Positions 2,486-44,969 of a stretch of 48,267 nucleotides of DNA are shown piece after piece. The notes beneath the pieces were generated by a model, which made no database searches, was not told the origin of the DNA, and worked only from the letters and a program-made list of their open reading frames with translations. Location of the stretch: positions 1-48,267 of the IMG/VR virus record IMGVR_UViG_3300037558_001699; one strand, given 5' to 3'. The position numbers and the translations under genes are program-made. This stretch comes from a virus. The number at the start of each line of letters is the position of its first letter. Position 1 is the stretch's first letter.

Positions 2486-3112
2486 CTAGTTATACTTGTA
2501 AGGACCATTATCTGGTTTAAATGTCTTGATAATGATACTACTCCTTAGTCCTCTATACTTATCTGAAGGTGGATTGCCTCTATGGGTAAGGTTACCTTTC
2601 ATAACAATAAGTCTTCCTGGTTTGTAATCAATATGAACAGGTTCTCCAGTATTATGATCAATATATTCAGTAGTACCACCCCATTCAGGTTCCCACTCTA
2701 GGTTAGAATGATATACAAATGAGATACCAGAGTCACAATCACAATCCTTATGATAATCAACCCAATGAATGTATTGTTGCCCGTTAACCATTACTTCATT
2801 TAACTGTGGCTCAATACCAAACTCTTCACATACAGCAAAAAACAACAGCTGATAGATGTGAGGAAAAGGTGCTTGACCACATGGATAAATGATTTGCCTC
2901 CATGCAGGAATCTCTGGATTACTCTCTTCTTTTTCTAAGGTAAGGTCAGATGGTCCGTAACTAAATGTGGTATGTCCCCATTTCCAAATCGCAGATTGAA
3001 ATACAGTATCACTTAGATACCTCATAAAGTATGGTTTAAAAATATCATCAAGAACAACAACTTCGTTATTCTCAACTCTTCTCATCCTATCAATTTTATA
3101 CTGCTCTGTCAT
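2486..3112 (-). CDS. 2-oxoglutarate/Fe(II)-dependent oxygenase
   Basis: A 208-residue protein with a double-stranded beta-helix signature in its second half: an HxD iron site (HKD after WVDY), a GG turn (EWGGTTEY), a distal His (LTHRGN) and an Arg shortly after (GLRSSI) that would bind the 2-oxoglutarate carboxylate. The order and spacing fit prolyl-4-hydroxylase-like enzymes. The substrate cannot be read from the sequence. It is the first of six such oxygenases in this window. Confidence 0.8.
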   Translation of the reverse strand: MTEQYKIDRMRRVENNEVVVLDDIFKPYFMRYLSDTVFQSAIWKWGHTTFSYGPSDLTLEKEESNPEIPAWRQIIYPCGQAPFPHIYQLLFFAVCEEFGIEPQLNEVMVNGQQYIHWVDYHKDCDCDSGISFVYHSNLEWEPEWGGTTEYIDHNTGEPVHIDYKPGRLIVMKGNLTHRGNPPSDKYRGLRSSIIIKTFKPDNGPYKYN

Positions 3113-3137
3113 AGTATATTGATAACTACTGTATGTA

Positions 3138-3335
3138 TCATTGTTCTCTGTGCTTTTTCCACATCTCAGCTACCATATCTACTGCTGGTGGTGTCTGATA
3201 AGGTGGTGATGGTTGTGATTGCCATTTATCAATTGCTTCCTGTGTAGGTACAGCAATTCTAAAAGGAATATCGTCTTTAATAAATTCCTCATTCATATCG
3301 ACATATGTTTGAGGAGTGATCTTAATCTCTTTCAT
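3138..3335 (-). CDS. Small hypothetical protein
   Basis: A 65-residue acidic protein with no recognised motif; its second half is Pro/Gln-rich. It overlaps the end of the upstream gene by 14 nt, as typical for co-translated phage genes. Confidence 0.6.
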   Translation of the reverse strand: MKEIKITPQTYVDMNEEFIKDDIPFRIAVPTQEAIDKWQSQPSPPYQTPPAVDMVAEMWKKHREQ

Positions 3336-3519
3336 TCATTGTACTATCAAGTGTATCGAGAATGCTATCAAACGACCCAATACTGTCAATATCACTAAGT
3401 GTCTTAGCAATCTGTGTACAAACAATTGGACGCTCCTGCCTAGCAGCATATGCTAGTGCATTGCGTAGTGTTGCTGATGCTTCGTTGAGTGATTCTTCAA
3501 CTGATTTAGATAATGCCAT
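3322..3519 (-). CDS. Small helical hypothetical protein
   Basis: A 65-residue protein predicted to be mostly alpha-helical (Ala/Leu/Ser-rich heptads), with no known motif. Its start overlaps the stop of the 99-residue gene by one base, so translational coupling is likely. Confidence 0.6.
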   Translation of the reverse strand: MALSKSVEESLNEASATLRNALAYAARQERPIVCTQIAKTLSDIDSIGSFDSILDTLDSTMNERD

Positions 3520-3818
3520 TACAATGTTCTCTCAAGTCTTTCGGTTGGTTGATCTGGGAAGTCCCTTGGACGATTGTCTAGTGCGTTGTCAGTCTTAGGA
3601 GAACCTTCGTTCGCCTTCATAGTATGCTGATAGTTTGGTCTTGGGTATCTGATACGGAATGGATCAGGCATCCAATAGGTAACTTGCCATTCTTGCTCAG
3701 GACACAACTCAAGATGTTTCTCTACAGTATGAGAGAAACTACCGAGTTGAATGTAACCATCGTGACTGACACATCTGCCGTTCCCAGTATCAACCAGGAA
3801 CATCATTTTACTACTCAC
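3519..3818 (-). CDS. Hypothetical protein, about 95-99 residues
   Basis: The frame starts at a GTG (3818) that overlaps the TGA of the upstream 47-codon gene (GTGA); an ATG pair at 3803-3806 is an alternative start. The N-terminal half is compact, and the C-terminal third is hydrophilic and Arg/Pro/Asp-rich, probably disordered. No motif recognised. Confidence 0.55.
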   Translation of the reverse strand: MSSKMMFLVDTGNGRCVSHDGYIQLGSFSHTVEKHLELCPEQEWQVTYWMPDPFRIRYPRPNYQHTMKANEGSPKTDNALDNRPRDFPDQPTERLERTL

Positions 3819-9633: not shown

Positions 9634-11324
9634 TAGGTAAACTGGCTATTGTATCTTTTTATCTTTGCGAGGATGTCCCCATCTGGTAACACTGGAAAAT
9701 TAGGAGTGTTAGTAGATCCACCACCTCCCGCTATAACCGTAGTTCCACCACCCTTATTTAGAGGAGGTAATGGGAAGGGAACAGTGATAATCTTAGGATT
9801 GGCAGAAAGATTGATGTTTGCTGGAGGTCCGACAGTTGGATCAGGACCAATGGGATTATTCTTTCCACTAAAGTCTGTCATAAATTGATTATCACCGTCA
9901 CCACCTCTCCAAGATGTTCCTGGCATTCTTCCATTTGCATCAGCTGCAACATCAGTAGCGGGATTACCATCACTATTGACTGATCTAATTGTTGCTGGAC
10001 TACCTCTGAACTGTGTTGCTCCTTTTACAAGTTCTGCTGCTTTCTGTCTCATGGATTGATTTCTCATATCCTTTATAGTTTGTTCAATATCAGTAACAGA
10101 CACACCAGCCCATCGGGCAGCTTCTTCTGCAGTAGTAATTTTTCTAAATGCACCAGCATCTCTTGCTATTGATACTCCAGCAAACTGTCCACCTGCAGCT
10201 AAAACATTAGTGTAGGACTGCCCATTTGCACTTGCTCTATTAGCAACCACTTGTAAAACATCAATGGCAGCTTGACCTTTTGCACCCTCAGTAAGTAAAC
10301 CAGCAGCAACTCTGAACTCTTCACCAGTGCCACTAGTACCTTGAGTCTGTGTACGAGGTATTACTGTGTTTTGTGGTTGTACTGTTGGTTTTGGTTCTGG
10401 TTCTTGAGTAGTACTGCCACCAGTGTTCACCTCAGGTGGTGGTTCATTTTTAGTGGATGGTTGATACTGAGGAGACTTAGAGATTGATTGTAACTGTTTG
10501 GTCGCATCTTTCATCCCCTCGTCATACTGTTTGTTAGTAATCTCTCCATCTTTAAGTTGCTGTTTGAGACTCGTAATTGATTTTTTTACCGAATCAACAG
10601 TCTGCGGTTTTTGTGCTGGATCACCTTCTTCAGTTACATTTTGACCTTGAGATACGGTCTCTGGTACAGGTGGCAGCCCCATTCCAGCTCTAACTTTATT
10701 AAATTCTTCAGCACCAGCATCTCTCATCTCTTTGATAGTTTTTTCTATCTTATCAGTAGTCTGAAAGAAATCTGTTTTTGTTTTCTCTACTGCAGATTGT
10801 GCCTCATCAATTTCTCTCTTAAGTTTACCTTCACTATCAGTGAAATCAAAGTTCTTAATATTCTCTACACCTTGTTTAACAACATCCACCATCTCCGAAA
10901 ACGCATTTTTCAAATTATCAACAAACCTCAACGCACCGTCAAAGGTTTCCTTGATAATTGATGCTACTTTTTGTGCGTAGAATATAATTTCTGGCAGTTT
11001 TGTTACTAAGAATCCCAGTAATAATGCTCCAGCAGCTCGTAACAGTCCACCAAAGAAACTTTTTGTTCCTGACATGGCACCTCTTATGCCACTAGTCAAT
11101 TTTTTCATCGGTTGCTTAAGCAACTCTATTTTATTTTCTTGCTCGTTCTTCTTTCTATTATCAGCAATTACATGCTCTAGTGTCGTAACTCTACTATTTC
11201 TAGTCAGATCTGCACGAACACTCTTACCCAAAGATTTTCGGATACCTTGAGTAGTTTGCCTTACCGCAAGTAAACCAAAATCAACAATATCTAATGCTTC
11301 TGTTGTTGGGATAAAATTATTCAT
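9633..11324 (-). CDS. Tape-measure/hub protein with SleB-like hydrolase domain
   Basis: A 563-residue virion protein. Residues 1-100 are basic and end in a hydrophobic helix (residues about 93-118); 150-300 are coiled-coil and Pro/Gln/Thr-rich linker. Residues about 337-385 read AAGLLTEGAKGQAAIDVLQ, ANRA, SYTNVL and GQFAGV, which fits the Hydrolase_2/SleB cell-wall hydrolase core, with the catalytic-type glutamate at about E346. The C-terminus is Pro/Gly-rich. The N-terminal organisation resembles the next gene upstream, so the two may be paralogues. I infer a tail-interior protein that opens peptidoglycan, replacing the gp5 lysozyme. Assignment as gp29 or another hub protein is uncertain. 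Confidence 0.65.
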   Translation of the reverse strand: MNNFIPTTEALDIVDFGLLAVRQTTQGIRKSLGKSVRADLTRNSRVTTLEHVIADNRKKNEQENKIELLKQPMKKLTSGIRGAMSGTKSFFGGLLRAAGALLLGFLVTKLPEIIFYAQKVASIIKETFDGALRFVDNLKNAFSEMVDVVKQGVENIKNFDFTDSEGKLKREIDEAQSAVEKTKTDFFQTTDKIEKTIKEMRDAGAEEFNKVRAGMGLPPVPETVSQGQNVTEEGDPAQKPQTVDSVKKSITSLKQQLKDGEITNKQYDEGMKDATKQLQSISKSPQYQPSTKNEPPPEVNTGGSTTQEPEPKPTVQPQNTVIPRTQTQGTSGTGEEFRVAAGLLTEGAKGQAAIDVLQVVANRASANGQSYTNVLAAGGQFAGVSIARDAGAFRKITTAEEAARWAGVSVTDIEQTIKDMRNQSMRQKAAELVKGATQFRGSPATIRSVNSDGNPATDVAADANGRMPGTSWRGGDGDNQFMTDFSGKNNPIGPDPTVGPPANINLSANPKIITVPFPLPPLNKGGGTTVIAGGGGSTNTPNFPVLPDGDILAKIKRYNSQFT

Positions 11325-12949
11325 GAATCAAACATTGCTGCTGTAAAATCTCGATAGAAATTATTAGAGTCTGAAGTAAAGATATTTGGGATATTCATAT
11401 CTGCTATGGTTGTGGTGGGGAAGGATGTCATCGAAGGCTCATCTTCAGATTCAGTTGTGAATGGAAGAATGTTTAAGTTAATATTATCGTCCATATCAGC
11501 AACATCTAGATTGCTTGCCTTGGCAAAGTTAAAACCTTTGATTGCACTCTGAGTATCATCCATACTAAATTTTAGCATGTCTGGTGCTCCACCTCCAGAT
11601 GCTGGTGTTGAGGAAACTTGCTGACTTTGAGTTTGAGTATCTGAGGACTGTGGAGCAAGAAGATTATCTGGCGCGTTCTTCAATGTATTCATTCTACTTT
11701 CTACTCTATCAATAGATTTCGCATCAAAATCTGGGAAGTCTCCAAAACCAAAACCTTTGAATCCAGGATCAAGTGTCTTTTTGAAGAATCCAGCATCTCC
11801 ACCCATAACAAAGGCAAATGTCTCTCTTCCTTGTGGAGATAAAGAACTTCTTTGACTCTTGATAAAATCTTGAGAAGCAGAAATCTGCTTACCCAATTGT
11901 TCCATCTTTGCCTTCAGCTTTTCTTTCTCATCAGGATCAGTTGTCGAATCATGTGCTAACTTAGTAACATCATACATCTCCCTATAATTTTTTATCTTCG
12001 ACATCGCTGCTCGCATGTTATTGAACAGTGCCTTATCTGCCTCCGATATATTCTTACCAAGAACATATGCATATGGACCTTTACCATCCATAGCTTCTCT
12101 TATTCTATCCATCTCCTGGCGCATTTGCTGCCGCTCACCTTTAACATCAAACATCCCGTGTTCTTGGAGATGATCTTCATGGAGTTTTTCTAACTCTCTT
12201 AGTGTTGCTTCTGGTCCAACTGTTGCCATTCTTCTCTGCACTTCTTTAGAAGTTGGATTATAGCTTTCAAAACCACTGGTCTTTTCTAATAAGTAATCAC
12301 TCAATGCTAATCCACCAAGAGCAACTGCTGCTCCAAGCCACACATATGGGTTTACAATTAGACCAAAAATAGCAGGCAAAGCTCCTAAAATAGTTCCAGC
12401 TAATGCTCCAGCAGCACCTAGAATCAAACCAATGCCACCATTAAGAGCAACAAATATACCAGCGCCGACAGCGAGTGCTTGTATTAAATCATTCTTTAAA
12501 GCTTCTAATGATTCTTTGTCGCCCTCTGCCCATGCAGTCAAAGCGTCAATCGCTTTCATTCCGACAAATCCAAAGAACAGAGCTTTGAGAGCATCCATGA
12601 TTTTCCCAAATGGACCCTGAATCTTCTGCTTCATTACCTCAATAGGTTTGATGAGAGAATTCTTTATCTTTGTTCCTAAGTTAGATTCTACATCTTGTAT
12701 TCTTGACTCTTGTCGTTCTTGCCGTAATTGTTTCTCGTCTGCTTTATCTTCTGATGCTTCTTGAGTATCTCTTCGTATTAAAAGATCAGCAATCGCTCTA
12801 AGATTGCTTCTGATCGCTAAAATATTTTTATTAAGACCGTTATACTGCTTCTCAGAGACATAACCAGCAGGAACCCCAGGGTTTACTACAGTTCCCTCTG
12901 GTGTCCCTGGTTGCCCTGGTGGAAGTAATTTTGTACGATCAATTGCCAT
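11321..12949 (-). CDS. Tape-measure-like protein (gp29 position)
   Basis: A 542-residue protein with an N-terminal Pro/Gly segment, a charged coiled coil (residues about 60-85), a conserved KxxxxGPFGKIMDALKALFFGF segment (given in part), then a long hydrophobic Gly/Ala-rich region (about 155-215) typical of tape-measure proteins, followed by more helices. It begins directly after gp51, the usual place for the protein served by the gp26/gp51 chaperones. T4 gp29 is 590 residues. It overlaps gp51 by 11 nt and the next gene by 4 nt. Confidence 0.6.
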   Translation of the reverse strand: MAIDRTKLLPPGQPGTPEGTVVNPGVPAGYVSEKQYNGLNKNILAIRSNLRAIADLLIRRDTQEASEDKADEKQLRQERQESRIQDVESNLGTKIKNSLIKPIEVMKQKIQGPFGKIMDALKALFFGFVGMKAIDALTAWAEGDKESLEALKNDLIQALAVGAGIFVALNGGIGLILGAAGALAGTILGALPAIFGLIVNPYVWLGAAVALGGLALSDYLLEKTSGFESYNPTSKEVQRRMATVGPEATLRELEKLHEDHLQEHGMFDVKGERQQMRQEMDRIREAMDGKGPYAYVLGKNISEADKALFNNMRAAMSKIKNYREMYDVTKLAHDSTTDPDEKEKLKAKMEQLGKQISASQDFIKSQRSSLSPQGRETFAFVMGGDAGFFKKTLDPGFKGFGFGDFPDFDAKSIDRVESRMNTLKNAPDNLLAPQSSDTQTQSQQVSSTPASGGGAPDMLKFSMDDTQSAIKGFNFAKASNLDVADMDDNINLNILPFTTESEDEPSMTSFPTTTIADMNIPNIFTSDSNNFYRDFTAAMFDS

Positions 12950-13118
12950 TAGCTTGTTGTGCCTTTAAATTCTGTTCTTCAATGTGTGATTGCAACAGAG
13001 TTAAATAGATCTCTCTTTCCCAAGGGATCATATTTTCAAGTTCACTCAAGCTATATTTATGATGCTGCACTAAGGCGAAATTGATCTTGTAATATGATAC
13101 AAGATCCTCATGCAACAT
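12939..13118 (-). CDS. gp51: Baseplate hub assembly protein gp51-like
   Basis: A 59-residue protein beginning MLHEDLVSYYKINFALVQHH with KYSLSELENMIPWEREIY following, a pattern found in small T4-like gp51 and tail-assembly chaperone C-terminal extensions. The ATG is 2 nt after the gp26 stop and has no Shine-Dalgarno sequence. The same frame is reached by a -1 slip at the T-run just before the gp26 stop. It is therefore probably made mainly as a gp26-gp51 fusion, as with lambda gpG/gpGT. Its end overlaps the tape-measure gene. Confidence 0.75.
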   Translation of the reverse strand: MLHEDLVSYYKINFALVQHHKYSLSELENMIPWEREIYLTLLQSHIEEQNLKAQQANGN

Positions 13119-13120
13119 CG

Positions 13121-13834
13121 CTAACTGAAAAAACTCGCTAATCCCTCAAGTACTACAGCATTTTCTTCGCCAGTGTTTGGGTTCTCAACAACAATAGTAT
13201 GACTAAGCTTAGGCATAGTCTCAAAAAACCTCTCAACTTGTTTAAACTGAGCTGAATTTAACTGTTCAATGAATTGAATCAATTCTTTCTTTGTACTATC
13301 CTTTGCTTCCCACGATTCTTCTTCTGAGAAAATCTGGTCAATACTACCAGCAATCACATCGAATGACTGTTCTAGTTTGTCACCAGCACCAAAGTTTTGC
13401 GCGATAAACTCACTTAGAGACGGATATCTCATACGCATTGTCAGTGTATCATCCAGTTTAATATCTGGATTGTGATCTTCGTGATACTTGATTTTAATCT
13501 CATCAATAGCAATACTTACAGGAACTTTTGTAGTTCCATCGTCTTGACAAGTAATGAGCAAGTCAATGGTTTCTCCAACAGACTTACCACGAACATTCAA
13601 GAACAGGTACTCAATGTCAAAAGTAGATAGTTTATCTACTTTGATGCCACGAGTCAAAATACATGACGAAAGGACATCTTTAATAGCTCTTCCAATATCA
13701 GAGAGATCATCACTCTCCATTGCCATGATAAGAACTTTTTCTTCTTTAACGAGAAAAGGTCTATATTTTACTTTTCTTTTTGATGATGGCAGTGTCAACT
13801 CATAAGTTGGTGTTGCAATCGTTGGTAAAGGCAT
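13121..13834 (-). CDS. gp26: Baseplate hub/tail chaperone gp26
   Basis: A 237-residue homologue of T4 gp26. Signature: MPLPTIATPTYELTLPSSK, then KVKYRPFLVKEEKVLIMAMES, then IEYLFLNVRGKSVGE and a C-terminal helical region. It acts in assembly of the central baseplate hub and is the likely counterpart of lambda gpG tail chaperone. The last codons GCG AGT TTT TTC AGT TAG contain a TTTTTTC slippery site. An ATAAATA motif lies 20 nt before the start. Confidence 0.9.
   Translation of the reverse strand: MPLPTIATPTYELTLPSSKRKVKYRPFLVKEEKVLIMAMESDDLSDIGRAIKDVLSSCILTRGIKVDKLSTFDIEYLFLNVRGKSVGETIDLLITCQDDGTTKVPVSIAIDEIKIKYHEDHNPDIKLDDTLTMRMRYPSLSEFIAQNFGAGDKLEQSFDVIAGSIDQIFSEEESWEAKDSTKKELIQFIEQLNSAQFKQVERFFETMPKLSHTIVVENPNTGEENAVVLEGLASFFS
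13131..13140 (-). promoter_or_regulatory. -1 ribosomal frameshift site between gp26 and gp51
   Basis: On the minus strand T TTT TTC sits in the gp26 reading frame two codons before its TAG stop (T-run at 13128-13133, adjoining C at 13127). Slipping back one base reads CAG TTA GCG ATG directly into the gp51 frame. The heptamer fits the X XXY YYZ rule. I did not identify a clear pseudoknot. Confidence 0.65.
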
Positions 13835-13854: not shown

Positions 13855-13861
13855 TATTTAT
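13855..13861 (-). promoter_or_regulatory. Late-promoter motif ATAAATA before gp26
   Basis: ATAAATA (minus strand) 20 nt before the gp26 start and overlapping the stop of the preceding gene. Closest match in the window to T4 TATAAATA, along with 37865 and 45832. Confidence 0.5.
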
Positions 13862-14772
13862 TGTTTGGATGGCCAATATGTACTACCAGAGTAGTCGATT
13901 CCATCAGCAAGACCGCCCTTGTAATTGAAATTAAAGTCTCCAGTGAAAGCGTTGGTTTTGATTTTGGGATCATAATAGTTCTTATTCATATCATACTTAG
14001 AGTAATCAATATTAAGATCAGAGCCACCAAAATCACCAAACTTCATTTTTGATTGTCCTACAGGACTGCTGCTCCGTTTCGGGTTAGTGTTAACGAACTG
14101 GAATGGATCGTTATACTTTCTAAGTTGACCAGATCTATACGATCTACTCAATTTATCTAGTCCACCAAAGAAGTGCCTGTCATATGTGAATGTGACTGAC
14201 AACTCTAGCAATCTACTTTGATCATAAGAAACTGTTATTGGTGCAAGACTCCTGGGAAAAGCATTTACATATGTGTATTCTACATCATGCTTATGATCTT
14301 TGTCAAATTTTTGAATACGCAAAGTTTCACACTTATAGTCTACAGGATATTCCATCCTGTGATAGTAAGCTCTTCTAGTTGGATTCTCTGCCCCACCACT
14401 AGAAATAAATTCCTGCCACAACTCAAAAAATCTAACAACCCGATACTTATCATCGACTATGAAAGACATAGTAAAGTCAGGATAAATCCTTGTATGGGCA
14501 TATTTCTGAATGATTCCCATAGCATGTCCAGACACTTGCGCCGTTGCAAATGATGTTCCTGGTAAGGAAGCAGTTTTACATAAGAGACCAAGATCTCTGA
14601 ATATAAATTTATTAGTTACTTCATCATCTCTGTCTGTAATAAACTTGATGAGCTTTGAAGGTAAGGACTGAAAGAAGACCTCATAGTGACTTGTAGTCGC
14701 TACTTCTTGAAAAAGTTTGCTAATAGATTGGGTCTGTATGCGTCTTGGATCTCTGTCCTTGATTAACCCCAC
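13858..14772 (-). CDS. Tail-tube-fold baseplate protein (gp54-like tube initiator)
   Basis: A 304-residue protein. The first 220 residues look like a tail-tube fold (MSFIVDDKYRVVRFFELW, MEYPVDYKCETLRIQKF, NAFPRSLAPITVSYDQS, LELSVTFTYDRHF), matching the general pattern of T4 gp54/gp19 proteins; the C-terminus is Gly/Asn/Tyr-rich. T4 gp54 is 320 residues. A GTG start at 14772 is supported by GGAG 8 nt upstream. Position before gp26 and opposite gp4/gp48/gp53 fits a baseplate tube initiator. Confidence 0.6.
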   Translation of the reverse strand: MGLIKDRDPRRIQTQSISKLFQEVATTSHYEVFFQSLPSKLIKFITDRDDEVTNKFIFRDLGLLCKTASLPGTSFATAQVSGHAMGIIQKYAHTRIYPDFTMSFIVDDKYRVVRFFELWQEFISSGGAENPTRRAYYHRMEYPVDYKCETLRIQKFDKDHKHDVEYTYVNAFPRSLAPITVSYDQSRLLELSVTFTYDRHFFGGLDKLSRSYRSGQLRKYNDPFQFVNTNPKRSSSPVGQSKMKFGDFGGSDLNIDYSKYDMNKNYYDPKIKTNAFTGDFNFNYKGGLADGIDYSGSTYWPSKQ

Positions 14773-15618: not shown

Positions 15619-15933
15619 ATGCTTTCCACTCAATATCGCCTCCGATTGGAGTTTATTTGTAAATGTATCGCAAACAATGAAGATGTGAAACTAGATGACA
15701 TGATTTGGGCACAAAAACTTGCTAAGGCAAATACATCTGCCAATGAGATGTTAAAAATGGCAAGACGCCAAGCATCTCAAAACATTGAAGAAGGAAGCAC
15801 CGATGATTTTCTGAATAGGATGGGTTTAGGAGATCCCGATCCATCCAACCATAAAAAGGGATTCAGTGATGCTGACGATATCAAAAATTGGTTCAAACAG
15901 GAGAAACCAGATGATTGGAGGCAAAGAGATTAA
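15619..15933 (+). CDS. Small hypothetical protein (104 residues)
   Basis: An N-terminal helical half (YRLRLEFICKCIANNEDVKL, MIWAQKLAKANTSANEML) and an acidic hydrophilic C-terminal half. No named motif. Its 3' end overlaps the next gene by 23 nt. Confidence 0.65.
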   Translation: MLSTQYRLRLEFICKCIANNEDVKLDDMIWAQKLAKANTSANEMLKMARRQASQNIEEGSTDDFLNRMGLGDPDPSNHKKGFSDADDIKNWFKQEKPDDWRQRD

Positions 15934-18302: not shown

Positions 18303-19922
18303 TTATTTATCTACTATATAATCACCAATAACCAAACAATCAATATCCATGCTAAGAAAAGCTTGAACAGCGTAGTATGGTGACTCTACTATTGGGTCTC
18401 CATTATCATTAAATGAGGTATTAACAACTACAGGAGGATCTAGAGTTGTTAGTAACTCATGGAGTTTTGGATTCCATGTTTTCCTAAGTGTTTGAATCCT
18501 ACATGTACCATCAGCATGTGTTATTGCAGGAATTAAATCACTTTTAACAGTTTGAGAGTAAAGCATGTGAGGTGTAGAGAATGCCTCTTCAAAGTATTCA
18601 CTGACATTTTCCTCAGGTATAATCCCAGCAAAGGGTCTCCAAGGTTCTCTGTGCTTAACTCTTTTATTCAGTACATCTTTGTTTTCTGCCTTTGACGGAC
18701 TCATAAAGATGGATCTAGATCCAAGAGCTCTTGGTCCATGCTCAGATCTACCTTGGAACCAAGCCACAATTAAATTGTCTTGTATTCTTTGCGATACCTT
18801 ATCAACATCGTATGGTTGATAATCTAGATCAAACAAATCTAATGCTTTTGTGATATCAGAATTAGTATATTCTTTGCCCAATAACGCTAGATTTGCAGGT
18901 GTAGATATGCTTAGGTTTTCTTCAAAACATCCCCAAATAGCAGCACCAAAGTGTATACCAGAATCATCTGGGAATGGGGGAATATGAATAGATTTAAACA
19001 AACCACTTTCTCTGATCTTGGTATTTGCCAAGATGTTTAAGAATGATCCACCAGCAAAACAAACTCTGTCAGTCAAATGATATCTTCTAAGTTTTTTAAG
19101 AAGTTCAATTAACCCATCCTCAAAATTCTTCTGGAGAGTATATGCAGCATCCTCAACACTATCAATGCCATCAACCCATACCGTATCAAAATTAATATAA
19201 GGAATAGAATGATCTGTTACATTATACAATTTCTGATATTTTTCAGAGTTTCCGTAAGCTGATAGACCCATGATCTTACCAGCGCAACCAATTTGAGTTG
19301 ACCAATTATCTACATCCTTCCCAGTCTTTACAGCGTATATCTGTGATGCTGCAACAGAGTAGATTTGACCAAAGTTATTATAGAATCCTTCAGGCATGTT
19401 ATAGAACCTGAAGATACCCTTCTCTTTGTTAAAAAATCCAATTGAATTATTCTCTATGTAATCAACCATGTCTCTAAATGGATCGTCAATTATAGATCCA
19501 CCACCGTCAAATGTTAGAAAACTTCCCTCATTGAAAGGAGATGTAAAAACAGTAGATGCAGCATGACATAGATGATGCCCCACTGATTTAAGTTCTGCCT
19601 TTGGAAAAGACTTCCTCAGCATCTTGGTCACTGTACCATTCTCAATTTGATGCAGATTTATGACATGACTCGTCGGTACATGATAAACTAAATTTACATC
19701 ATCTTTAGTGATTTGACCAACAGAAAGACAATAATCTATAGATTTTTGTGGATAATTTCCATCATATTTTGTTTTAGTAAGTCTTTCTTCGTTGATGCTA
19801 CAGACATGTTTGCCGTTAATAAAAAGAGTACACCCCGCGTCATGGACGAAGGATGTACTCTCGGATACAAACTCTAGGTTTGCATCCCAATCATAAGCAC
19901 CATAGATGCCAATTATGATCAT
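18303..19922 (-). CDS. Carbamoyltransferase, NodU/TobZ family (copy 1)
   Basis: A 539-residue O-carbamoyltransferase. N-terminal Kae1-like domain: INEERLTKTKYDG (44-55), metal-binding GHHLCHAAS (H116, H117, H120), FDGGGS (138-143). C-terminal YrdC-like domain: FQGRSEHGPRALGSRSI, HREPWRPFAG, VVNTSFNDNGDPIV. The family makes carbamoyl-AMP from carbamoyl phosphate and ATP and transfers the carbamoyl to a hydroxyl. Its ATG overlaps the gp32 stop (ATGA), so it is translated with a replication protein, unlike the copy at 35036. Substrate unknown: a sugar is usual, but a hydroxylated base is conceivable given this coupling. Confidence 0.9.
   Translation of the reverse strand: MIIIGIYGAYDWDANLEFVSESTSFVHDAGCTLFINGKHVCSINEERLTKTKYDGNYPQKSIDYCLSVGQITKDDVNLVYHVPTSHVINLHQIENGTVTKMLRKSFPKAELKSVGHHLCHAASTVFTSPFNEGSFLTFDGGGSIIDDPFRDMVDYIENNSIGFFNKEKGIFRFYNMPEGFYNNFGQIYSVAASQIYAVKTGKDVDNWSTQIGCAGKIMGLSAYGNSEKYQKLYNVTDHSIPYINFDTVWVDGIDSVEDAAYTLQKNFEDGLIELLKKLRRYHLTDRVCFAGGSFLNILANTKIRESGLFKSIHIPPFPDDSGIHFGAAIWGCFEENLSISTPANLALLGKEYTNSDITKALDLFDLDYQPYDVDKVSQRIQDNLIVAWFQGRSEHGPRALGSRSIFMSPSKAENKDVLNKRVKHREPWRPFAGIIPEENVSEYFEEAFSTPHMLYSQTVKSDLIPAITHADGTCRIQTLRKTWNPKLHELLTTLDPPVVVNTSFNDNGDPIVESPYYAVQAFLSMDIDCLVIGDYIVDK
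18304..18310 (-). promoter_or_regulatory. Late-promoter motif ATAAATA
   Basis: ATAAATA 26 nt before the ATG at 18277, overlapping the stop of the carbamoyltransferase gene. Confidence 0.45.
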
Positions 19923-40964: not shown

Positions 40965-43900
40965 TCAGATGGTGATGATTCTCCAACCTTGTGTGCCATC
41001 ATAGAAGACCAGTTCAAATGCAGCACCCTCAGTGTTAACTGTCAAGTCTGAAGCGTCTCCCATGATTGGGTTACCGTTTCTACCAATCGTTAATGCGTTT
41101 GAATCAAATGTCTTGGCGACATCAAAGATTCTAACAGTATCACCCTTAACAGGAGATCCAGGTAAGGTAAGTGTGAATCCACCGCTAGTAGTATTACAGA
41201 ATGCTTGCTGTCTGTTTGCCAATGTGGTTCCATTACCACTGACATCTACATTACTGTAAGCACCCAGAGGCAACCAACCAGCACCGTTATAGAATTCAAA
41301 TCCATCAGAGTCGGTATCATAGCGGAGACCACCTTCGATTAGATCAATACCAGTTGGACGCCCAGCTTGGTTACCACGAGGTGGAACAAGAATACCAGAA
41401 GTGGTATCCATCTTACCGCGAGTGAGGAAGCCACGAACTGCTTTCTCAGTAGGACATGCTTGGTTAGAGTCGCCAGATAGGAATTCGTCAGAAGAGAATT
41501 CGTTAACTGCTTCACCAATCTGACCACCAATGGCACCCAGTCTCAGTTCAGAAAGACCTGACAGGTTGAATGCAGAGGCATCCAGGGTAGCAGCACCAGT
41601 CAACTGGTTAACAGAGAAGTATTCACCAACTCTGAAGTTACCACCTTGGTCAGTAGAGACGAAGAAGATCTTACCAGTGTTCAGTACAGTTGTCTCGTTA
41701 CCCTGAGAAGCTGTGTTCTCGTCAACATTTGGATAATTGGTTGCCGAAGTGTTACCTGTACCAATTAGCAGGAAGTCATGACCCGTAAGACGAACCTTGG
41801 AGAACTTAGATCTCATCAAGAACTCTTGATTATCATACGAAGCAGGAGCAGATCCTTTAACTGGTGCAATGTTGATCGTTGCACGACCATTTGCTTGGTT
41901 AACAGCATTAGTTGCTGCACTTACAAATGTATGGGAACTTGTATTTGTAGAAGGAATAGTACCTAGTGACTGGAATGAGAATGTATTCAAAGTCGTTGCT
42001 GAGATAGCAACTAATGTATTATGTAATTCGTCAGGGCTATTAGCGTTAACACCCGTGCCTTTCGCACGAGGATATGTTTTGGTTACTGTGTTTCCATCTA
42101 GAGCACAAGTAAATGATAACGAGTCAGTCTGTAGTTGAATATTATCTCCAACCATCATACCGTGACCATTAGATGTCAACTCTACGATACCGTTTGATGG
42201 GTTATAAGCACCAGCAGTTGGAGTAAAGTTATTACCAGGAACATAGTTACTTACAGTTCTGACGATGTATCCAATTGAATCGGAGAATCCTAATCCAACT
42301 GTAGTAAATCCAATCGTATCACCAACAAGTGGTGTTGTACTCAGTCCGACTACTTCAAATAGTCCATCCTTCTGTCCACCAACGGAGTTAGATGCAGATG
42401 CAATCTTAACATATCCTGTACCACCAGCACCGACAGAATCAAATTCAATGAACTCACCAGGTGTGAAGACAGTAGTACCAACACCAACAGCACCGTTAGC
42501 ACCATCGGCGTTACCAAATCCAGAATTGTACTTAAAGTACAGTTGATCACCAGAGATCTGATTGTTTGTAACTACAGCGCGAGCTCCTGATGTAGCACCA
42601 CGCATCGTAGCACCAACAGAGATAGTACCGGCAGAAGTACCCACTTGGGTTGCCATCTTGTCACCAAAGAGGCGAGCAGAGCGAGCAACTTCTAGTGTAG
42701 AGAATCCAACAGCTAATGCACCGTATGTACCGTAGGAGTTGTTACCTGAGAGAGATCTGATTTCAGATCCATCATCAGAAACATAACCGAAAGCACAGTA
42801 GTAAGTGAAGGAAGAAACAATCTCAGCAAGAGCATCATCTTCAAGCCAGAAACCTACACCACCGGAGTGAATGTTGGTAAAGGCATCGAAGACCATCGAC
42901 TTACCACCTCTACCCTCAGGTTTACCTTCGTGGACACCACCCTCAATAAAGATACCTACAGCACCTTCATGTCCAGTACCATCAGTACATACATTAGAGA
43001 ATGCGGTACAATCTTTAATATAAGGTGAACGCTCAAGAATAGGAGTATCAGGATTAAGTCTGAAGTAGACACCACAAGCTGTAGTACCTACACCAACCTT
43101 GGGTTGCCACTGATCAGTATTGAAAGGATCATTAGTATCATAATCAAATCCTTGCAGACCACGCATCGTGATTGCCTGAACCGTCGTAGAGTCAGACACG
43201 AAGAACATCGTGGAACGCTGATTAGGTGTTACACCATCAGTAGCAAAACCAGCAGCTGGTTCAACAGTCGTACCTCTCAGAACATCACCAGCAATCGAGA
43301 AGTTCTTAGGCAGTGTGATAGGAAGTTGCTCTCTGAATACACCAGCAGACAACTTCAGAATGATAGGAGATACATCAGTAACCTCACCACCGCTCACATA
43401 AGTATGAGCAATCGTAGAGATACCGACATTGGTAGTAAATGAATTGGAGTCAACTACAGAGTCAACTTTAAAGAAGAATCCTTGTGTACTATCTGGGAAG
43501 ATAGTAGTTGTGATACCAGCATGAGCTTGGGCACAAGTGAATCCAATACCCTGCAGTTTAACCTGACCCTGTGAGAACAGACCATGAGCAGCAGCAGTAA
43601 CTGTTGCAATACCGCTAGACTCATCATAAACAAAGTTGGTAATATCTCTTCTAATCTGACCAGCAGTAGAAGCAAATGAGATAGAACCCCAAGCATTATC
43701 AGGTGTAAGACCTGTACTTGTATCCGAACCTTGCTGTGCATCAACATAGTATACCTTGGTACGGAGACCAGGATACTGCCACTCAACCTCATCGCTAGAA
43801 GAGACTCTTAGATATGTACCTTGCGTACCAATACCCTGTCTCGAAGGGCCAGTACCATCTCTGGTAAGCAGGTCACCTTTAGTCGTCAGCAGTGCTGCAC

Positions 43901-44969
43901 TATCACCGATAGCGAACGCTGCCCACATGGTAACAGCAGTACCAGGTTGGACATTAATGTTAGATGATGCAATCGAGATGTAAGCAGAAGATGCAAACTC
44001 AGCGACATCATTAATCTCATATACACCAGAACCACTCCAGGTGCTTCTCCAATTGAAACCACGGTTAATCAGAGACCAACCATTAATACCAGTATCAACC
44101 GATGTAATACCAAGACCTACAGGTCGCTTATCAACTTCAATCTTAATATCGTCAGCAATATATGTAATACCACCAAGGGTTACAGTCTCACCTCTAGAAT
44201 ATGTCTGACTAGGAGCATAGGTAGATCCACCAGCAGTAGCAATACCACTGACAAGCAGAGTCCATTCCTGTGGACTGTCGTTAGGTTGAGAAGATAACGG
44301 GTTAGTACCAATAGCTACATATGATGCACCTTGGAACTCAACAATGTCACCTCTCTCGTAACGAGCCAGGGCATCATAGATACCCTCGTTAGTGAAAGCT
44401 TTACTGAAGTCTACGAAGTTTGATGATGGAGGATAGAAACCATCCGAACCAATACCTGTGAGATCGTGCAGGGATGTAGAGATCCCCTGCATCGATAAGT
44501 CTGCAGCGACTTGGAATGGTACTGTTGTTCGGTATTCTTGTCCGCCGTATCTAACAACATCATTGATGCCGTAGTAGGAGTTCGTAGTAAAGGCACCTCG
44601 GAAGTTCAGTCCCTCGCCGTAGAGCTCCCAGTATGCCGGGAAATCACTACTGTACCAGTTACTTTGGACACCGGTCGAAGTGTGTTGAGCCGTACAGATG
44701 TATTGATTACCGCCTTCCTTGACGATATCGTTTACAACATATCCGGTACTGACTGACCATTCGCCAGCATAATTCTGTCCCTCCGTATGAAGGTCCCAGT
44801 AGGTATTGTCGTTGGGAAATCCGGTAGAGCTGGCATCTGAGGTGTGGTTCCCTGTACATACATAGGAACTTGCACCGAATCTAACGATGTCATCAATAAT
44901 GAATGCGGTAGAGGGTGCCCAGGCACCACGCCAGTTAAATTTCAGTCTACCAAGTCTAAATTCTGCCAT
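40965..44969 (-). CDS. Large tail-fibre protein with CBM5/12-like repeats
   Basis: 1334 residues. The first 350 residues hold about six related units (FNWRGAWAPSTAFIIDDIVR, WSVSTGYVVNDIVKEGGNQY, FRGAFTTNSYYGINDVVRYG) with the W..xxxYxxxDxVxxxGxxYxC pattern of carbohydrate-binding modules 5/12. A pectate-lyase-like beta-helix part follows (VDAQQGSDTSTGLTPDNAWG, ILKLSAGVFREQLPITLPKN), then a beta-rich C-terminus ending AFELVFYDGTQGWRIITI. Likely long fibre with sugar-binding sites. Confidence 0.8.
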   Translation of the reverse strand: MAEFRLGRLKFNWRGAWAPSTAFIIDDIVRFGASSYVCTGNHTSDASSTGFPNDNTYWDLHTEGQNYAGEWSVSTGYVVNDIVKEGGNQYICTAQHTSTGVQSNWYSSDFPAYWELYGEGLNFRGAFTTNSYYGINDVVRYGGQEYRTTVPFQVAADLSMQGISTSLHDLTGIGSDGFYPPSSNFVDFSKAFTNEGIYDALARYERGDIVEFQGASYVAIGTNPLSSQPNDSPQEWTLLVSGIATAGGSTYAPSQTYSRGETVTLGGITYIADDIKIEVDKRPVGLGITSVDTGINGWSLINRGFNWRSTWSGSGVYEINDVAEFASSAYISIASSNINVQPGTAVTMWAAFAIGDSAALLTTKGDLLTRDGTGPSRQGIGTQGTYLRVSSSDEVEWQYPGLRTKVYYVDAQQGSDTSTGLTPDNAWGSISFASTAGQIRRDITNFVYDESSGIATVTAAAHGLFSQGQVKLQGIGFTCAQAHAGITTTIFPDSTQGFFFKVDSVVDSNSFTTNVGISTIAHTYVSGGEVTDVSPIILKLSAGVFREQLPITLPKNFSIAGDVLRGTTVEPAAGFATDGVTPNQRSTMFFVSDSTTVQAITMRGLQGFDYDTNDPFNTDQWQPKVGVGTTACGVYFRLNPDTPILERSPYIKDCTAFSNVCTDGTGHEGAVGIFIEGGVHEGKPEGRGGKSMVFDAFTNIHSGGVGFWLEDDALAEIVSSFTYYCAFGYVSDDGSEIRSLSGNNSYGTYGALAVGFSTLEVARSARLFGDKMATQVGTSAGTISVGATMRGATSGARAVVTNNQISGDQLYFKYNSGFGNADGANGAVGVGTTVFTPGEFIEFDSVGAGGTGYVKIASASNSVGGQKDGLFEVVGLSTTPLVGDTIGFTTVGLGFSDSIGYIVRTVSNYVPGNNFTPTAGAYNPSNGIVELTSNGHGMMVGDNIQLQTDSLSFTCALDGNTVTKTYPRAKGTGVNANSPDELHNTLVAISATTLNTFSFQSLGTIPSTNTSSHTFVSAATNAVNQANGRATINIAPVKGSAPASYDNQEFLMRSKFSKVRLTGHDFLLIGTGNTSATNYPNVDENTASQGNETTVLNTGKIFFVSTDQGGNFRVGEYFSVNQLTGAATLDASAFNLSGLSELRLGAIGGQIGEAVNEFSSDEFLSGDSNQACPTEKAVRGFLTRGKMDTTSGILVPPRGNQAGRPTGIDLIEGGLRYDTDSDGFEFYNGAGWLPLGAYSNVDVSGNGTTLANRQQAFCNTTSGGFTLTLPGSPVKGDTVRIFDVAKTFDSNALTIGRNGNPIMGDASDLTVNTEGAAFELVFYDGTQGWRIITI

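Follow-up and report, generated by a model that had tools for sequence, protein, structure and literature searches.

Genes 26 and 51 of marine T4-like phages as one probable gene, with a short and a long tail assembly chaperone predicted from a −1 slip at a conserved heptamer

The dnaX signal of E. coli comprises a Shine–Dalgarno-like motif 10 nt upstream, a slippery heptamer (A AAA AAG) and a downstream hairpin, and the slip site of phage lambda is G GGA AAG. In lambda, the G/GT pair lies before the tape measure gene, and a −1 slip shortly before its first ORF ends gives rise to a short form and a long form (PMC5009743). This G-T frameshifting is widely conserved, T4 being the exception (2016 review, PMC5009743). 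The gp26/gp51 pair described here resembles lambda G/GT in that a tape-measure-like gene comes next and in that slipping by −1 close to where the first ORF stops would give two forms, but it differs from lambda in its heptamer, T TTT TT[C/A/T], and in the size of gp26, which is larger than gpG. The pair is like dnaX in having a Shine–Dalgarno-like element at a spacing of 10 nt, a heptamer and a downstream hairpin (weak in the window), but the heptamer, the gene and the purpose are different.

For T4 itself, genes 26 and 51 are said to have been named by Vladimirov and colleagues in 2022 as separate short and long chaperones, and the same work reportedly describes several T4-like groups in which frameshifting is conserved and the slip sites are poly-T. 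The identification of T4-like chaperone genes is, according to its title, the subject of Vladimirov, Gautam and Davidson (2022, Virology 566:9-15), and papers that cite this work state that some T4-like phages have a separate short gene together with a fused long gene (PMC10885494), and that among T4-like phages the chaperone genes are known to contain −1 signals of the poly-T type (PMC12846349). The sequence-only reading of this locus, made earlier, had known of no account of frameshifting for T4-like gp26/gp51; on this point it was wrong, as frameshifting of T4-like chaperones had been reported, to judge by the title and the citing papers (Vladimirov et al. 2022, Virology 566:9-15). Thus, the mechanism is not new, and the pair in the window is a well-supported further case. 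Compared with what its title and the citing papers convey of that work, the probable additions here are a broad sample, the lineages in which gp51 has no start codon, the Shine–Dalgarno-like motif at 10 nt and the covarying hairpins.

The window (the whole stretch of DNA analysed) is a 48-kb virus contig from IMG/VR, in which the gp26–gp51 pair sits between a tail tube-like gene and a tape-measure-like gene, the match of the latter being weak (E 1e-5) (Table 1). On the minus strand, the 3′ end of gp26 reads GGA TTA GCG AGT TTT TTC AGT TAG. The letters and coordinates given in the sequence-only reading are correct, although the strand (minus) was left unstated. The heptamer T TTT TTC that it recognized is at 13133-13127, and the in-frame entry of a −1 slip into gp51 was also seen correctly: no stop interrupts the −1 frame between 13145 and 12939, which leaves a stretch of just 9 codons in which a slip could occur. 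The predicted −1 fusion of gp26 and gp51 is 298 aa in length, reads LASFFQLAMLHEDLVSYYK across the junction and ends ...LEGLASFFQLAMLHEDLVSYYKINFALVQHHKYSLSELENMIPWEREIYLTLLQSHIEEQNLKAQQANGN. It was likewise confirmed that gp51 starts 2 nt past the gp26 stop (ATG at 13118), with no Shine–Dalgarno sequence 4–16 nt upstream of this ATG in the window; GAGG at 13147-13144 is 25 nt away from the ATG and is beyond reach as its ribosome site. In addition, gp51 matches the C-terminal end of PHROG 150, which is a sign that some phages carry both parts as one protein.

Table 1. Positions of the gp26–gp51 locus and of its neighbours in the window
Feature	Position	Strand	Basis
gp26-like gene, putative short tail assembly chaperone (TAC-N), 237 aa	13121..13834	-	ORF; PF12322 T4_baseplate E 7e-72; PHROG 150 E 4e-77
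Slippery heptamer T TTT TTC	13127..13133	-	T TTT TT[C/A/T] in 235/237 distinct junctions
Zero-frame stop TAG, one codon 3′ of the heptamer	13121..13123	-	Spacing identical in 203/210 T TTT TT[C/T] junctions
gp51, −1 frame ORF, putative C-terminal domain of the long chaperone (TAC-NC)	12939..13145	-	PHROG 634 E 1.5e-26; 589 synonymous:108 non-synonymous, 63 pairs
GAGG, Shine–Dalgarno-like, ends 10 nt 5′ of the heptamer	13144..13147	-	GAGG/GGAG ≤26 nt upstream in 118/156 lineages
Weak proximal hairpin, at the site of a strong one in relatives	13094..13118	-	-4.3 kcal/mol without the distal arm; covarying 11-bp stem in relatives
9-bp hairpin GATCTTGTA/TACAAGATC, 20 nt 3′ of the heptamer	13083..13106	-	63-nt stretch 13071-13133, fold z -2.97
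Tape-measure-like gene, directly 3′ of gp51, 11-nt overlap	11321..12949	-	Weak match to PHROG 58 tail length tape measure (E 1e-5)
Tail tube-like gene, 5′ of gp26	13858..14772	-	PF23849 E 7e-15; PHROG 45 tail tube E 1.5e-33

With high confidence, gp26 and gp51 are regarded as a single gene from which two tail assembly chaperones would be made, one short and one long, the second of which would arise via a −1 slip. The majority of ribosomes would terminate at the TAG codon and release gp26, the short chaperone; in a minority, with tRNA-Phe on TTT TTC in the P site as well as the A site, there would be a slip by −1 onto TTT TTT, and translation would then continue through gp51 to give the long chaperone. 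The rate of slipping would probably be raised by pairing of the upstream GAGG with 16S rRNA and, in many relatives, by the downstream hairpin. The two forms would probably coat the tape-measure protein and recruit tail tube subunits, in the manner of lambda gpG and gpGT.

The heptamer alone is unremarkable: TTTTTTC occurs 16 times in the window, where 12.7 occurrences are expected. Heptamers of the form X-XXY-YYZ (Y = A or T) number 276 on both strands of the window, and only three of these lie ≤60 nt from where an ORF of 80 codons or more ends and have a −1 frame that spans 40 codons or more. The two besides the gp26 site were rejected, one (TTTAAAG at 43472, minus strand) being inside a 1334-aa ORF (40965-44969), hence at no gene junction, and the other (TTTAAAG at +15566) opening into a gene for which there is a separate ATG at 15619. 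A chance run of T as the explanation is ruled out by conservation at the level of codons, and a +1 slip by the +1 frame, which in none of the close relatives stays open for more than about 65 nt from the stop.

Conservation of the heptamer was followed in IMG/VR and in named phages, which together gave 237 distinct junctions. The sequence is T TTT TTC in 205 of these, T TTT TTT in five (the variant found in HTVC008M and Melnitz-2) and T TTT TTA, the heptamer of HIV-1, in 25 from an uncultured marine group. The heptamer is thus kept in every close relative of the window and far beyond (235/237), as expected under the frameshift proposed in the sequence-only reading; it is also present in Stenotrophomonas phages DLP6 and BUCT608, Aeromonas phages 65.2 and AS-zj, Vibrio phage KVP40, and OLIVR5 and ORM_20, the range including phages of Agrobacterium and Ochrobactrum. 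For codon usage, the junctions were grouped into 156 lineages (<85% gp26 identity), a set preselected for the heptamer, for which the unselected figure is 235/237. All 156 of these heptamer-selected lineages use TTT for the first Phe, against 69% in the pool, and the codon 5′ of the slip Phe (AGT, TCT, AAT, GAT, GCT, GGT or CAT, for six amino acids) ends in T in all 156, whereas across gp26 the T-final codons make up 32% of those for Ala and 64% of those for Ser. Of 48 conserved columns, the 12 with the strongest bias include just one without synonymous variation, that of the slip Phe.

The two junctions without an in-frame heptamer are that of Vibrio K476 and that of a contig 99% identical to HTVC008M with a broken frame. 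The identity of this contig applies to gp26, where it has an early stop, probably a sequencing or assembly error. In Vibrio K476, Vibrio D528 and Aeromonas phiA8-29, the −1 relation of the two frames is kept, with CTT TTT or CTT TTC in place of the heptamer; these junctions represent either another type of slip or the loss of frameshifting. The junction of Vibrio K476 and D528 carries TAATG. With gp26 of KVP40 as the query, scans gave just two loci, and with that of Vibrio K476 they gave none.

In the gp51 stretch of 63 independent pairs, single changes in the −1 frame were synonymous in 589 cases and non-synonymous in 108, compared with 121:615 and 41:682 in the other two frames; at the sequence level, the −1 frame is therefore under strong purifying selection. 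The conservation extends upstream of the supposed start of gp51, where the residues FFR[IVL] are also conserved. This bears on the reading that takes gp51 for a protein in its own right, produced through translational coupling: the ribosome would terminate at TAG and begin again at the ATG 2 nt further on, the heptamer being a mere Phe-Phe in AT-rich DNA. Stop-start overlaps are common in phages, and there is an ATG at that codon in the window and in 67 of the 156 lineages. However, the position is mostly occupied by Leu elsewhere; the codons 5′ of it change chiefly synonymously in the −1 frame (31:12); and coupling gives no reason for the invariance of the third bases of the slip codons. Furthermore, the first codons of gp51 are without an ATG in 60 of the 156 lineages, and in 50 the 12 codons past the slip include neither ATG nor GTG nor TTG. 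As there is no start codon near the junction in these 50, re-initiation at the stop is implausible as the source of gp51, and the slip is the sole evident route to its conserved N-terminus. Even where there is an early ATG, a Shine–Dalgarno-like 4-mer precedes it in just 12 of 96 lineages, so the suggestion of the sequence-only reading that gp51 has no ribosome site of its own is borne out in most of the relatives too. Re-initiation alone is rejected because so many lineages are without a start, and coupling as the entire explanation is very improbable.

A combination is compatible with the frameshift and would add to it: the slip would produce the fusion, and re-initiation would produce some free gp51 in the lineages that have kept the ATG. 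The ATG, where present, is at the ideal position for coupling, and in the window its distance of 2 nt from the stop means that stop-coupled re-initiation could give free gp51 as well. On the other hand, the ATG lies in the 5′ arm of a hairpin in its clade, an arm which could by itself conserve the ATG, and a free C-terminal domain has no known function; the combination is thus considered unlikely.

If gp26 and gp51 are joined by a slip, gp51 of marine T4-like phages is probably no independent gene, and many annotations of cyanophages and pelagiphages would have to be corrected. Most of the start-less lineages reach their first in-frame ATG some 20 codons downstream, and this is the start of gp51 in several database records. 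Public annotations place it at an internal Met, about 50 nt further on, in S-B64, S-RSM4, P-TIM40, Melnitz-2 and HTVC008M, and have no gp51 directly 3′ of gp26 in Syn10, Aeromonas 65.2 and AS-zj. Syn10 is itself without a start codon close to the junction.

In T4, both gp26 and gp51 are listed as hub assembly chaperones, gp51 being needed for assembly and absent from the particle, and genetic evidence places gp26 in the hub (PMC3004832). Gp26 may, for this last reason, be more than a chaperone. Both T4 proteins match PF12322 from end to end of this family model. By profile comparison, T4 gp26 corresponds to residues 11–237 of the predicted fusion (E 3.5e-18) and T4 gp51 to residues 12–282 (E 3.5e-16), i.e., T4 gp51 aligns with the whole of the fusion and T4 gp26 with gp26 alone. 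Thus, T4 appears to encode as separate genes the two forms predicted here: its homologue of the short form is gp26, and that of the entire fusion is gp51. The gp26-like N-terminal part of T4 gp51 also argues against gp51 of the window being a separate protein made by coupling. Unlike in the window, the two T4 genes are divergently oriented and no frameshift is needed. These comparisons support the view that T4 swapped the frameshift for two separate genes, which would explain why it is an exception to the G-T rule (PMC5009743). Genes of the gp51 type and gp26-like type are adjacent on the same strand in the Slopekvirus phiKp_23 (2501-3795), in contrast to their divergent arrangement in T4.

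The interpretation as tail chaperones, proposed in the sequence-only reading, agrees with the order of the genes, with the comparison to T4 and, weakly, with the fold. Judged from sequence only, there would be a short form of 237 aa and a long form of 298 aa with a C-terminal extension. The structural model of gp26 has a pLDDT of 89 and matches relatives of gp26 in BFVD. Against the PDB, the model had no significant match, the HK97 tail assembly chaperone (2ob9) ranking fifth and being non-significant (E 1.0, probability 0.54, TM 0.42 by target); the gp26 profile gave just weak, unrelated matches to PDB sequences. Near the structural genes, there is a carbamoyltransferase gene at 18303-19922 on the minus strand (PF02543 and PF16861).

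Two kinds of candidate stimulatory element accompany the heptamer. The motif GAGG or GGAG is present ≤26 nt upstream in 118 of the 156 lineages, mostly at exactly 10 nt, compared with 11% of control windows; the Glu codon at this element is GAG in 104 of 141 cases, whereas elsewhere Glu before Gly is mostly GAA (39:12). Downstream, many lineages have a covarying hairpin 5–8 nt past the heptamer, and a strong stem (score of at least 14) begins 3–9 nt past the site in 49% of lineages versus 7% of control windows. In the P-SSM2-like group (42 sequences), the hairpin GTATGGCTCA/TGAGTCATAC begins 5–6 nt past the heptamer and 90% of its pair cells are standard; 27 cells are changed on both sides, compared with 11.4 in shuffles (reached in 0/500), and, as the shuffles ignore relatedness, these hairpin figures are supportive and are not probabilities. 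The combinations GCT/GAG, GCG/GCG and GCA/GTG covary in this stem, the partner changes altering amino acids of gp51. An unrelated 8-bp hairpin occupies the equivalent position in the TTTTTTA group. In the window, the near hairpin is weak (-4.3 kcal/mol) and the stable one is 20 nt away, so that a hairpin stimulator is not claimed for this phage.

These elements also bear on the reading that RNA polymerase, and not the ribosome, slips on the run of six T to give a shifted product. Such a run is present in nearly all junctions; however, the spacing of the hairpin and the Shine–Dalgarno-like element at 10 nt fit ribosomal frameshift sites, and a run of six bases is short by the standard of programmed slippage in transcription, which makes polymerase slippage extremely improbable. 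For the ribosomal slip, it is tentatively proposed, at somewhat below even confidence, that there is a composite stimulator, unreported for T4-like chaperone genes, consisting of a Shine–Dalgarno-like motif 10 nt upstream together with a hairpin that different lineages have rebuilt with different sequences in the same overlapping frame, under selection that was enough to change amino acids of gp51. The natural variants, with their differing heptamers and hairpins, would be a ready series for how stimulators set the ratio of the chaperones. The hairpin of the marine T TTT TTA group is GGCTCTC/GAGAGCC.
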